Virus record (IMG/VR): IMGVR_UViG_3300017987_000308
Span: 1 to 27,066 of that record
Direction: 5' to 3' (one strand)
Length of the DNA stretch: 27,066 nt
From: a virus
The position numbers were made by a program, and so were the translations under genes. The notes under the pieces were generated by a model that saw only the letters and a program-made list of their open reading frames with translations, searched no databases and was not told the DNA's origin. Of the stretch, positions 754 through 7,056 are shown in pieces (the first letter of the stretch is position 1; each line of letters starts with the position of its first letter).

Positions 754-1595
754 ACAACGCAGTTTCCTTAGACCATAAGCAGAAGCGTTCCAGCTTCAAA
801 GAGATCACCCTACGTAACTTGCATCGTCCATCGTTGCGAGAGTACGAGGGTGAGCAATTTATGTCTAAGCACACTACGATTCCAGAACTCCTTGAGTTCC
901 TTCGTAAGGTTCCAGCAGAACACCTCAAAGGTATCCGCAGGATCGATATCAGTAACAAGATGAAGTCGTATCCTATCGGACACTACTCAGACACACCCAA
1001 CTACTTGGAAGCACTGAAGAGGGAAGGTCGAACAGAGGCGTTGATCCTTGGTTCGTATGATCCCGACACCAGAGTTATTACCCTTACCTGTGGACTTGAA
1101 CATCCTCAGGTCGAGTGCGACTTTGAGTGGGTGGTCTTTCATGAGATCTGCCATCACTACATGAACTACATGGACCCCCGTATCCTGAAAGCCTACGCAT
1201 CACTTGTTCGTGGGCATACGGATATGGGTTATGGTGGGCTGAACCCGGAAGAGTCATTCTGTGAAGCCTACGCCGCGTACCTGACAGGTGGTGTCCTGAT
1301 CGCGGAGGTTCGTGAGTTCATGCGAAAGATCGTGTTCAAGCACGAAGAGAACGAGATCATGGCAAAGAGCTTGCCTGTCTACGATGACTTCTTCAAAGCT
1401 GTCAATGTGGATCGAAAATGTACTGCCAAGCTTCCGGTAAAGCTCCGGGAGTCAGAGTATCCTGTTGTGCAGGGTATCGAGAAGGAGTGGATCAAGGACT
1501 ACCAAAGCACGCTACTTGCCATGGCTCAGGAGATCCTTGAGGTCGTTACTCCACAAGAGAATATAGATGAAGATGAAGAGGAAGAGGACGACTGA
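750..1595 (+). CDS. Putative zinc metallopeptidase (HExxH) in the head gene cluster
   Basis: 281-residue protein with a canonical zincin motif, HEICH at residues 131-135, preceded by a hydrophobic strand (FEWVVF). Downstream is an acidic helix (NPEESFCEAYAAY, residues 165-177) in which Glu168 or Glu172 could be the third zinc ligand, a gluzincin-like layout. The C-terminus is a run of Asp/Glu. Start: GTG at 750 overlaps the portal stop by 4 bases (GTGA) with GAGGT upstream. An alternative is ATG at 861, which removes 37 poorly structured residues. It lies between the portal and MuF genes, so it could be an internal head protein that processes head components or is ejected with the DNA. That role is inference; only the motif and position are seen. 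The dedicated prohead protease is a separate gene at 3778. Confidence 0.72.
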   Translation: MNNAVSLDHKQKRSSFKEITLRNLHRPSLREYEGEQFMSKHTTIPELLEFLRKVPAEHLKGIRRIDISNKMKSYPIGHYSDTPNYLEALKREGRTEALILGSYDPDTRVITLTCGLEHPQVECDFEWVVFHEICHHYMNYMDPRILKAYASLVRGHTDMGYGGLNPEESFCEAYAAYLTGGVLIAEVREFMRKIVFKHEENEIMAKSLPVYDDFFKAVNVDRKCTAKLPVKLRESEYPVVQGIEKEWIKDYQSTLLAMAQEILEVVTPQENIDEDEEEEDD

Positions 1596-3430
1596 TGTTT
1601 GCAGGACTTACTGCTGATCAGATATACAAGATCGAAGAGATCATCCGCATGCACCACTGGGCGTTTATCGCAAACACAGTAGGTCGCGAGTATGTTCCTG
1701 AAGAGATCTTTGCAAACTTGGTTTCTAGGGGACTCATAAATAAGTCCTCTAAAGCCTTGCTGAAAAAGGTTGTTCAGTTTGGAGATATCGTAGAAGAGGT
1801 AGGCAGAACACAAGCGGTAAAGCTGTCCTATGCTCAGTTCAAAGCCCTCCTGCGAAAGATGCCTGAAATAACTGAACTTCAGAAGATGGCTGTAGCCTAC
1901 CTTTCCAAACAAGCGGTATCGAGTATCCGTAAGATGTCGAGAAAGGTAGAGGATGGTCTTGCAGAGGCCGCGACCAAGGCAGCACGTCGAGAAAGAACCG
2001 TAGAGATTGCCAATGCTACAGAAGGCTACATTACCAGTGCGAAGAAGGTGAGCGCACGGATGCTTGCAAACGACTTGGCAAACGAGTTCGGTGGGTATGC
2101 CAAGGACTTCCGCAGAACCGCAGTCACAGAGGTACACAACGCTGTGCAGCAAGGCGTTGCTTCGACCATGCGTAGCAAGTACGGAAACGACATAGACGTA
2201 ATCAAGCTTCCTGCCCCAGACGCGTGTTTTCCGGCAGGGGTATGTGTTTACACAAAGACCGGAGTTGTTCCCATAGAAGACATAAAAACCGGGGATGTGG
2301 TTCTGACCCACAAACTAAGATGGAGGAAGGTGGTAGGGGTATCTAAGCGAGAGTACTGTGGTGGTATTACTACTATACAGTCAGGAGGGAGATCCGTTAC
2401 GGCTACCTCTAATCACCCTTTTCTTTCTGGGATGAACTGGGTTGAGGCCAAGTCGGTCAAGTACGGTGATGAGGTAGTCACACTCACTGGAATCCTCGAT
2501 ACGGATGAGTATCCATCCCCTATCACGGAGAAGCCGTTCTTTTTTGATATCCCTCTTTCTGGTTGCCCCGGAGTAGTGCCAGCTTCCCCGATCCATCTCT
2601 ACCGCGATCTTCTCGGAAGGGATAGCGATATCGAGGTTGTAGATATCGAAGGCAAATTCGGGAACAAGTTCTTGGGTAAGGTAGGGAGACAGGTTAGAAA
2701 CCAGATCCTTGGTATCATCCGTCATGTGAGATCTACTGTTCATTTTTGTACGGGCTTTTTTACGAAGGGCTTGGGGAGAGATGGCCTTAGCTCTAGCCTT
2801 TCGTGCATTCTCAGTAAGACTTTTCCTTTGTTCTTTTGTCATGCTCGCCATGCGTGCGGCTTGAGTGGTACGGGTGTCTTTCAAGGGCACCCCTTCGGCT
2901 TCAAGCCGTGTCCTAATGGTGTGGTGGGTGACCCCGTATTTTCTAGCAAGAGAACAAAACGATGCAGAAGTCGTCGTGTATTCTTTAGCAATCTTTTTCA
3001 TAGGGAGAGTCTTCTTCAAGGCAGGCATGGTGTATCCTCCACTAAAAGGGTTCTTCGGAGTGTAAACTGCCGGACACATAAAGTCAAGTCCTCTGTTTCA
3101 GGAAGCTTCGAGGGTGTTGTATACAACTTATGCGTGGAAGAAGATGAGAGTTACTTTGCGAATGGGATAGCTGTTCACAACTGTCCCTATTGCAAGCTTC
3201 TGTTCCTTGATGACAACGGAGAACCAAAGGTCTTCAAACTGTCCAAGATAGAGGGTAACTCAAACATCGGTAGAAAGGCCGGAAAGCCTGAGCCGGGAAA
3301 GACCCAGTGGCTCCCTACCGTGGATGCAGTACACCCTCATTGTAGGTGCCAACTGATCCGTATCCCCAAGGGGTGGGAGTGGGACAGCAGTATCGGTACG
3401 ATCCGTCCTAAGAAGAAAGCGAGAACCTAG
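1595..3430 (+). CDS. MuF-type phage minor head protein precursor interrupted by an intein
   Basis: 611-residue precursor. Residues 1-210 and 530-611 make a continuous MuF-like (head morphogenesis, SPP1 gp7-like) protein of 292 residues. It has a helical N-terminal domain, the motif FRRTAVTEVHNAVQQG near residues 171-186, a CPYC motif at the splice junction, and the family's C-terminal signature HPHCRC (precursor residues 584-589). Members sit on or near the portal inside the head and are needed for infectious particles. Residues 211-529 are an intein inserted exactly before the Cys of CPYC. The ATG at 1595 overlaps the previous stop by one base. Residues about 305-500 read as low-complexity, Phe/Ser/Arg/Cys-rich filler because that DNA codes for a protein on the other strand. 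Without splicing the CPYC/HPHCRC fold would be split, so activity probably depends on splicing. Confidence 0.88.
   Translation: MFAGLTADQIYKIEEIIRMHHWAFIANTVGREYVPEEIFANLVSRGLINKSSKALLKKVVQFGDIVEEVGRTQAVKLSYAQFKALLRKMPEITELQKMAVAYLSKQAVSSIRKMSRKVEDGLAEAATKAARRERTVEIANATEGYITSAKKVSARMLANDLANEFGGYAKDFRRTAVTEVHNAVQQGVASTMRSKYGNDIDVIKLPAPDACFPAGVCVYTKTGVVPIEDIKTGDVVLTHKLRWRKVVGVSKREYCGGITTIQSGGRSVTATSNHPFLSGMNWVEAKSVKYGDEVVTLTGILDTDEYPSPITEKPFFFDIPLSGCPGVVPASPIHLYRDLLGRDSDIEVVDIEGKFGNKFLGKVGRQVRNQILGIIRHVRSTVHFCTGFFTKGLGRDGLSSSLSCILSKTFPLFFCHARHACGLSGTGVFQGHPFGFKPCPNGVVGDPVFSSKRTKRCRSRRVFFSNLFHRESLLQGRHGVSSTKRVLRSVNCRTHKVKSSVSGSFEGVVYNLCVEEDESYFANGIAVHNCPYCKLLFLDDNGEPKVFKLSKIEGNSNIGRKAGKPEPGKTQWLPTVDAVHPHCRCQLIRIPKGWEWDSSIGTIRPKKKART
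2381..3028 (-). CDS. Antisense homing endonuclease (HTH + Vsr/EDxHD-like) inside the intein
   Basis: 215-residue protein on the strand opposite to the intein that contains it. Residues 23-46 (SFCSLARKYGVTHHTIRTRL) look like a helix-turn-helix that would bind target DNA. Residues 60-105 form a basic linker. Residues 118-195 look like a Vsr/DUF559-type PD-(D/E)XK nuclease: FDIYNLDIAIP, then IAVEMDRGSWH, then RD (159-160), then RGWILIRIE. Candidate metal or catalytic residues are Glu124, Asp128 or Asp133, Glu144, Asp146, His151 and Asp160. This matches the EDxHD homing endonuclease family (I-Bth0305I-like) known from phage introns and split inteins. The ATG at 3028-3026 was chosen over the upstream in-frame start because GTGGAGG lies 7 bases before it. 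The sense strand is open throughout and in register. Family assignment is by eye and was not confirmed by a search. Confidence 0.82.
   Translation of the reverse strand: MPALKKTLPMKKIAKEYTTTSASFCSLARKYGVTHHTIRTRLEAEGVPLKDTRTTQAARMASMTKEQRKSLTENARKARAKAISPQALRKKARTKMNSRSHMTDDTKDLVSNLSPYLTQELVPEFAFDIYNLDIAIPSEKIAVEMDRGSWHYSGATRKRDIKKERLLRDRGWILIRIEDSSECDYLITVLDRLGLNPVHPRKKRVIRGSRNGSPS
3035..3042 (-). promoter_or_regulatory. Shine-Dalgarno of the antisense endonuclease gene
   Basis: Read on the minus strand this is GTGGAGGA, followed 7 bases later by the ATG at 3028. It is one of the best ribosome-binding sites in the window and sits in DNA that, in the sense direction, is only intein filler. 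It decides the start (MPALKK) and argues that the antisense frame is translated. Confidence 0.75.
3059..3087 (-). promoter_or_regulatory. Sigma-70-like promoter for the antisense endonuclease gene
   Basis: On the minus strand, TTGACT (3087-3082; 5 of 6 to the -35 consensus) is separated by exactly 17 bases from TACACT (3064-3059; 4 of 6 to TATAAT). Transcription would start near 3052 and leave a leader of about 24 bases before the start codon. Position and spacing suit an independent promoter, but a match of this quality can arise by chance; no experimental support is visible. Confidence 0.5.
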
Positions 3431-5673: not shown

Positions 5674-7056
5674 ATGTTGTTTCAAGGTGAACAGAGTTTT
5701 GTTGGTGTGAACGACTATGCCAACATTCAGGGTTTCGGCGTTGCTTCGCCGGAAGAGGTCGCTGACCTGAACAAAGCCCTGAGTGTCGGTTACGCGAACC
5801 CTCCCACCACTGGTGGTGATGTTCTGCGTGTTGAGAGTCTGGAAAAGACTCTGAAGGTCGTCACGTTCGAGATGAAGCATCTCAAGATTTGGCCCAAGGT
5901 CACGAAGGCTCCGGCCTACTCGACCGTGGAAGAGTATAACCGCCTGAATGCCTACGGTAACGTGGACGCTGGTGGTTTCTTTGCTGCTGGTGGTCTTCCT
6001 GAGACTCAGGATACCAACTACAGCCGCGAAACTGCGCTGGTGAAGTACCTCGGTACGACCCGCGAAGTTCAGCACCCGGCGACTCTGATCAAGCCGGCCA
6101 ATGGCGACGTGATCTCGCTGGAAACCAAGAACGGCACGATGTGGCTGCTGAACAAGATGGAACGGTCCATGTTCTACGGCAACGCCACCAACAACGCTCT
6201 TGAGTTCGACGGTCTGGAACAGCTTGTTCCCGCTGCGAACGTTATCGACCTTCAGGGCAACAGCCTGACCGAGGGTGATATTGAGCGTGCTGTGAACGTG
6301 GCTGCTGAGAACTACGGTGTGCCTTCGGACCTGTTCCTTGGTCTGAAGAACATGTCGGATCTGGTTCGTACGTTCTATCCGAAAGAACGCTACAACCTTC
6401 CGGCTCCCAGTGGAAGCACTGTCGGTCTGAACGTGACTTCGTTCATGTCGCAGATCGGCCCGATTCAGTTCAACCCCGATGTCTTCATCACCCCCGGTGG
6501 TGTAAGCTCGCAGATCGGTGCCCCGCCTTCGGCTGCTACCAGCCCGAATGCTCCTGCGGCTCCGACCGTTGGTGCGCTGACTGTCAACGCGGTTACCACT
6601 GGTAGCCTCACGGCTGGCGACTACGCATATCAGGTAACTGCCGTGAACGCGAGTGGTGAATCGGCTCCGACCGTCATCACGGCTAACTCGACTGCTGCTG
6701 CGAACAACACCATCGATGTCCCGATCACGAAGGGTGCTGGTGCAGATCCTCTGTACTACCGCATCTATCGTCGGGATAACGATGATGCCAGTGGTGCGCT
6801 GTTCGTCACGAATGTGAAGTTCTCGGCTTCGCCGCAGACTTGGGTTGATACTGGTGCGACTATCGCGGGTACGCGGACTGCGTTCCTCCTGCCGATGTCT
6901 CCCGATATCTACCAGGTCAAGCAGTTGGCTCCGTTGATGAAGATGCCCCTCGCTGTTGTGAGTGCGTCTTATCGCTGGATGCAGTTGCTTTACGCGGTTC
7001 CGATTGCGTACCAGCCGACCAAGCTCGTCATGTTCAAGAACATTGGCGAACTGTAA
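5674..7056 (+). CDS. Major capsid protein with an Ig/FN3-like domain
   Basis: 460 residues. The N-arm carries ANPPTTGGDVLRVESLEKTL (41-60), followed by TFEMKHLKIWPKVTKAPAYSTVEEYN, the pattern of HK97-fold major capsid proteins of myoviruses. The body includes TALVKYLGTTREV (120-132), GDIERAVNVAAENYG (201-215) and the C-terminal LMKMPLAVVSASYRWMQLLYAVPIAYQP. Residues about 293-403 form an inserted beta-rich domain (TAGDYAYQVTAVNASGESAP, YYRIYRRD) typical of a fibronectin-III or Ig-like fold, which would decorate the capsid surface. RBS GAGGAG about 12 bases upstream of the ATG. Codons are strongly biased (CTG Leu, AAC Asn, ATC Ile), as expected for the most abundant protein. A strong terminator follows. 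Confidence 0.9.
   Translation: MLFQGEQSFVGVNDYANIQGFGVASPEEVADLNKALSVGYANPPTTGGDVLRVESLEKTLKVVTFEMKHLKIWPKVTKAPAYSTVEEYNRLNAYGNVDAGGFFAAGGLPETQDTNYSRETALVKYLGTTREVQHPATLIKPANGDVISLETKNGTMWLLNKMERSMFYGNATNNALEFDGLEQLVPAANVIDLQGNSLTEGDIERAVNVAAENYGVPSDLFLGLKNMSDLVRTFYPKERYNLPAPSGSTVGLNVTSFMSQIGPIQFNPDVFITPGGVSSQIGAPPSAATSPNAPAAPTVGALTVNAVTTGSLTAGDYAYQVTAVNASGESAPTVITANSTAAANNTIDVPITKGAGADPLYYRIYRRDNDDASGALFVTNVKFSASPQTWVDTGATIAGTRTAFLLPMSPDIYQVKQLAPLMKMPLAVVSASYRWMQLLYAVPIAYQPTKLVMFKNIGEL
5773..5844 (+). repeat. N-arm segment shared with the prohead protease
   Basis: Codes for capsid residues 34-57, the counterpart of the protease segment at 4342-4413 (18 of 24 residues identical). In the capsid protein it lies directly before the conserved start of the HK97 fold. 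Confidence 0.8.

Follow-up and report, generated by a model that had tools for sequence, protein, structure and literature searches.

Intein endonucleases are translated as a fusion with the intein that carries them (reviewed in PMC3943268). Two other arrangements have been described in which an endonuclease is hidden within another element: the ShiLan domain, an out-of-frame HNH endonuclease in phage methylases (Arsenault et al. 2025, PMC11855218), and the homing endonuclease genes that Porphyra group I introns carry on their complementary strand (PMC2585584). The EDxHD family of endonucleases was named in Dassa et al. 2009, according to the part of PMC12350094 that cites it. In the literature we searched, which included neither Dassa 2009 nor a 2025 preprint by Gosselin, Arsenault and Gogarten (bioRxiv 2025.01.02.630785), there was no description of an endonuclease encoded antisense within an intein. 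The preprint, on actinobacteriophage inteins of non-canonical architecture, may include the arrangement reported here, and prior description cannot be excluded.

The window analysed here, the whole 27,066-nucleotide stretch of IMG/VR record IMGVR_UViG_3300017987_000308, is part of a phage structural region (Table 1). Its head protein gave no direct match to a MuF Pfam profile, and the plus-strand frame of the gene is free of stops across the whole of the intein. The residues of a class 1 type intein are present, namely Cys1 (C2225), the TxxH of block B (TSNH, 2405–2416), the terminal His-Asn and Cys+1 (HN/C, 3176–3184, the slash marking the splice junction). AlphaFold2 modelled Hint-N and Hint-C with confidence (pLDDT mostly 87–98 in the two halves, low at residues 12–32), and Foldseek matched the model to the solved RadA, GyrA and RecA inteins with probability up to 1.00; the best E value was only 0.0056 because the filler between the halves dilutes the intein model. 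Judged by its predicted Hint fold and its catalytic residues, the segment 2225–3181 is a genuine intein, protein splicing itself being inferred. The insertion site (DA/CPYC) is unlike the common site N/CRC.

Table 1. Features of the head-gene region of the window, with coordinates in the window
Feature	Position	Strand	Evidence or remark
Partial portal gene			before the 611-codon ORF; phrog_11117 match
MuF-like minor head protein gene with intein, single open frame, 611 aa	1595–3430	+	open ORF; Intein_splicing and PT-HINT matches
Intein, 319 aa, Cys1 to Asn319, then Cys+1	2225–3181	+	translation CFPAG...AVHN/C; Pfam Intein_splicing E = 1.8e-9
Dual-coding overlap	2381–2494	both	plus: Hint-N block B to end of Hint-N; minus: last helix and disordered tail of nuclease
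Antisense homing endonuclease of Vsr/EDxHD type (215 aa; helix-turn-helix part N-terminal, nuclease domain C-terminal)	2381–3028	-	MTES_1575 E = 1.8e-8
Nuclease tail, residues 199–215, including RVIRG, predicted disordered	2384–2434	-	pLDDT <50 at 199–210 and 212–215
Block B TSNHPF	2405–2422	+	antisense is KRVIRG in nuclease; inside minus ORF
Last nuclease helix, residues 180–192	2453–2491	-	AlphaFold2 models show structure in both frames, the plus frame giving a Hint-N strand
Filler, plus-strand reading of nuclease body	2500–3058	+	intein residues 100–278; AlphaFold2: no confident fold, pLDDT mostly 30–60
Shine-Dalgarno sequence GGAGG	3036–3040	-	7 bases ahead of ATG 3028–3026
Sigma70-like promoter TTGACT-17-TACACT	3059–3087	-	sole promoter-like site in 2900–3300, 0.2 expected
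Block F GVVYNL	3113–3130	+	most relatives GHVYNL, His codon CAT being antisense of nuclease ATG; not so in window
Major capsid gene	at 5674		after the 611-codon ORF

On the opposite strand the intein contains a long open reading frame with in-frame start codons at 3079 and 3028 and a stop codon at 2383–2381. The latter is the likelier start, because it is preceded by GGAGG (3040–3036) and because the ATG at 3079 falls within the only promoter-like site (3087–3059); the upstream start, which also lacks a Shine-Dalgarno sequence, was rejected. The product matches the profiles REase_MTES_1575 and DUF559, and a profile of its family matches 3HRL and 3R3P, two Vsr-like proteins of solved structure. 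Its AlphaFold2 model has a mean pLDDT of 88.8, with the confident part ending at the helix formed by residues 180–192, and its best Foldseek match is I-Bth0305I (3R3P), an EDxHD homing endonuclease. The predicted Vsr/EDxHD fold thus marks the product as a genuine nuclease, whose expression and cleavage activity in the window are inferred. A fractured gene with a split intein was ruled out by the uninterrupted plus frame (1595–3430) between the intein halves, a canonical intein with an in-frame endonuclease domain by the location of the nuclease on the minus strand and the lack of a confident fold in the plus reading, and a ShiLan-type out-of-frame endonuclease without a splicing element by the presence of the intein motifs and Hint fold.

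We interpret the locus, with considerable confidence, as a mobile intein that has its homing endonuclease encoded separately, by a gene on the other strand, although there are no direct data on splicing, expression or cleavage. The data presented here document the arrangement and its recurrence, the avoidance of stops, the constraint on two strands, the placement of start codon and Shine-Dalgarno sequence, the predicted folds and the recent transfer of an intein between genera. The nuclease gene sits where intein endonucleases usually do, between splicing blocks B and F. In the mechanism we propose, the head protein would be synthesised with the entire intein in it. The filler, being the nuclease gene read antisense and in register, would have no meaning of its own, and the intein would then be spliced out by its two Hint halves; the nuclease would be transcribed and translated independently from the minus strand. 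It would cut intein-free copies of the head gene, and repair would copy in the intein together with its antisense gene. Such a nuclease gene would have to avoid the codons TTA, CTA and TCA, which would otherwise stop the host frame, and with its C-terminal end written in the complement of Hint-N the same bases would answer to two proteins.

Relatives were found by tblastn with the window's nuclease and then with its relatives, and by a scan of IMG/VR. The tblastn searches matched well over 100 phage records, largely annotated as head genes; among those fetched the nuclease was antisense to the head gene in 15/16, and in none of the fetched annotated records with an embedded copy was the nuclease annotated. 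A 16-member alignment proved too diverse for pattern searching and a four-member alignment worked in viral contigs, its pattern matching only two bacterial loci; the IMG/VR scan added 80 loci. Compared against IMG/VR, the window's nuclease found three near-identical contigs and one distant match (L008), which a family profile did not confirm. Of the 98 loci with a nuclease match, 97 have the nuclease antisense to, and in register with, an open, intein-bearing head gene. The in-register antisense frame is likewise stop-free in 97/98, with up to 44 stops in the remaining two antisense frames. In the aligned set, host proteins matched Phage_Mu_F (43/59), VG15 (6) or Phage_min_cap2 (2), with Intein_splicing matched in 49/59. 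The antisense ORF covers a median of 92% of the intein in relatives and about two thirds of it in the window. Gordonia and Mycobacterium phages with such an intein also exist, and the Kagunavirus phages fEg-Eco06 and Snoke carry inteins of this kind at two differing positions in the same head gene, before CRARDG and before CRSTT.

The one exception among the 98 loci is Acinetobacter phage IME285 (L014), in which the nuclease (positions 413–1345) is free-standing beside an uninterrupted MuF-like head gene, convergent with it and slightly overlapping its end; the in-register antisense frame holds 12 stops. The tail of this nuclease has kept a likeness to antisense Hint-N, which suggests a gene that has escaped from an intein. 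Our search patterns were built from embedded nucleases and may have picked up too few of the free-standing ones.

The two frames are in register, each plus codon being the reverse complement of a minus codon, so that a plus-strand stop would appear in the nuclease as TTA, CTA or TCA. Not one of these codons occurs in 80 nucleases, compared to 498.7 expected given host codon usage. In the window taken alone, an open plus frame has a probability of about 0.10, given the Leu and Ser content of its nuclease; the window by itself is therefore weak evidence, and the claim of stop avoidance rests on the family.

In typical relatives both ends of the nuclease gene overlap the splicing domain. The codon opposite the His of block F (GHVYNL) is ATG or GTG in 75/80 relatives, but not in the window, and the bases opposite the following Asn-Leu usually yield a GGAGGT-like Shine-Dalgarno sequence. 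Codon usage within the motif is correspondingly skewed, the His codon being CAT in 68/75 (29.8 expected) and the Leu codon CTC in 63/76 (15.4 expected). At the other end, the antisense of block B TPNHPI is YRVIRG, and the pairing of TxNHPx with (Y/K)RVIRG recurs in relatives, whose nucleases extend from 7 to 78 codons beyond block B and end near Cys1. The most frequent length is 33 codons (22/74), and tail length is conserved in one group. The original prediction had concerned this end only; in most relatives the start codon and Shine-Dalgarno sequence also overlap the splicing domain, as those of the window do not. With the shortest tail (7 codons past block B), predicted to be disordered, a start shifted out of block F and one near-invariant catalytic Glu missing, the window is the mildest member of the family.

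Several relatives also have a perfect or near-perfect sigma70 promoter (TTGACA-TATAAT) opposite Hint-C, its -10 box ending 28 bases before the ATG and its -35 box, TTGACA, complementing block G codons for Val-Ser-Asn. Ser replaces His before the terminal Asn in 32/79 inteins (~40%), and a good -35 box was found in 14/32 members with penultimate Ser compared to 0/33 with penultimate His (p = 8e-6, uncorrected for kinship among members). Antisense promoter scores overall exceed those of synonymous-codon shuffles (p = 0.0016), an excess driven by a subset of relatives, hence a universal antisense promoter is unsupported; -10-like matches lying 45 and 48 bases ahead of the start were discounted, as they appear to be a by-product of Hint codons. 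We think it likely that these phage inteins, mostly in MuF-type head genes, form a class with an independent antisense endonuclease whose expression signals lie in the splicing motifs, and in which the antisense gene seems to influence the residues of the intein as well. The layout we ascribe to many of its members places the -35 box opposite block G, the Shine-Dalgarno sequence and start opposite block F, the C-terminus opposite block B and Hint-N, and the stop a few codons from Cys1.

Evidence for mobility is indirect. Between Kagunavirus Snoke and Jerseyvirus UPWr_S5 the intein is 95.6% identical, compared to 69.6% for the N-extein and 80.8% for the C-extein, a pattern that is as expected for recent homing and that points, on sequence comparison, to transfer of the intein between phage genera.

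It had been predicted for the window that the minus frame runs past block B within the intein to end at 2381, that the overlap begins at about Asp179 of the nuclease, and that both strands of the overlap are under protein-level selection. The first of these is borne out by the sequence, and Asp179 does fall at 2494 if translation starts at 3028. The overlap was said to encode a C-terminal helix and a basic tail; the helix is indeed structured in the model, and the tail opposite block B is predicted to be disordered in the window. Selection was assessed, as had been suggested, from substitution rates in both frames, using relatives. Because the frames are in register, third positions of minus codons are first positions of plus codons. 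Pooled over 16 pairs, change at plus-strand first and third positions was 0.26/0.46 in the N-extein, 0.08/0.26 in Hint-C, 0.27/0.20 in the nuclease core and 0.20/0.21 in the part of the overlap upstream of block B. In the host frame, third positions changed 1.8–3.4 times as much as first positions in exteins and Hint-C, 0.74 times as much in the nuclease core, and ~1.0–1.4 times as much in the overlap.

Fourfold degenerate sites gave a sharper result. In 17 independent pairs, change at host fourfold sites was 0.30 in the overlap compared to 0.50 in non-overlapped Hint codons (p = 9e-6), and at nuclease fourfold sites 0.13 in the overlap compared to 0.36 in the core (p = 7e-15); a paired Wilcoxon test gave p = 8e-5. 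The fourfold p values treat sites as independent and are not corrected for multiple tests. Pairs reflecting recent transfer (L055/L056, L049/L052, L011/L022 and L011/L018) were left out because their intein and exteins differ in age. Synonymous change is thus lower in the overlap for both proteins, which supports selection on both strands among relatives. The prediction would have been refuted by relatives whose minus frame stops upstream of the Hint-N region, and 0/80 resolved embedded relatives stop before block B. The closest relatives of the window (L005 to L007) differ from it by 1 to 3 bases, none within the element, so the claim of selection rests on the family and not on the window's own lineage. 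Change at nuclease-synonymous core sites (0.36) is also below that at host-synonymous sites of free Hint codons (0.50), a gap that seems to be beyond stop avoidance alone; the filler may be under mild selection.

Several other explanations must be considered. In-register antisense frames are often open, the codon usage of the window gives an open partner a fair likelihood (about 0.10), and the minus frame could in principle be a chance or mirror ORF without a product; we give this almost no credence in view of its homology and fold similarity to I-Bth0305I and Vsr-type enzymes, the substitution pattern in the nuclease frame, the codon choice at the start and Shine-Dalgarno sites, and the existence of a free-standing relative. 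We consider it very improbable, too, that the plus-strand filler is a functional intein domain and the minus frame its shadow. The plus consensus does contain a conserved, nearly invariant FHGDG motif, but this is the antisense of the VAVE strand of the nuclease, substitutions follow the minus frame, and the filler has no confident fold whereas the minus product has one. The motif could mislead domain annotation. More difficult to dismiss is the suggestion that the nuclease needs nothing past its last helix, and that its tail across from block B merely runs on to the first stop, with YRVIRG no more than a shadow of TPNHPI. Codon arithmetic alone yields that pairing, the matching solved Vsr-like domains end at or before the last helix, and the window's tail is predicted to be disordered. 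However, when 24 pairs were examined over finer regions, host fourfold change was suppressed in the tail (0.33, p = 3e-5) and at block B (0.26, p = 9e-7) compared to ~0.51 in free Hint codons, which weakens a pure shadow reading; the conserved 33-codon length in one group and the recognisable tail of the free-standing L014 nuclease also count against it, and we regard it as unlikely. Host suppression was only suggestive (0.42, p = 0.07) in the part after block B where the last helix is encoded.

It is less clear whether the window's own nuclease is still active, or whether the insert is old and its gene decaying. The protein retains Asp133, Glu144 and His151, but has Thr106 at a near-invariant position occupied by Glu in 52/57 relatives, and Lys at residue 163 where 56/57 have Arg; from these substitutions the copy may be weakened or decaying, and the family's shortest tail and the displacement of the start from block F are in keeping with this. 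Yet the 215-codon frame is intact, its fold is well predicted, a Shine-Dalgarno sequence and promoter are in place, and Asp residues at 104, 105 and 108 adjoin the missing Glu. Decay is possible, though we are inclined to doubt it. Whatever the state of this copy, a mobile intein with a separate antisense endonuclease remains our preferred reading of the locus.

If this reading holds, the two strands of most of an intein encode a splicing protein on one side and a nuclease on the other, with constraint measurable on both, which offers a natural system for the study of overlapping genes. It would explain how inteins can acquire an endonuclease under separate regulation without fusion, and leads us to expect unannotated homing endonucleases hidden in canonical-looking inteins of phage head genes. 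Canonical in-frame inteins of the PI-SceI type are alike in their Hint halves, in the position of the endonuclease between blocks B and F and in homing by double-strand break repair, but their endonuclease is fused to the intein (PMC3943268) whereas the present one has its own gene, on the other strand. I-Bth0305I (PDB 3R3P) has the same EDxHD/Vsr catalytic fold and N-terminal helix-turn-helix DNA-binding modules, but was deposited as a mobile-intron protein, whereas the gene described here lies antisense within an unbroken intein. The ShiLan domain resembles it in residing in a phage gene, in encoding an endonuclease in a frame other than that of the host and in leaving the host frame free of stops; however, it lies on the same strand as its host, is of the HNH type and had no intein or intron found with it (PMC11855218), in contrast to an antisense Vsr/EDxHD enzyme within an intein. 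The endonuclease genes of Porphyra group I introns are antisense to their host, as here, but those introns, unlike the intein, are spliced at the RNA level, and there is therefore no pressure on them to keep an antisense protein frame open.
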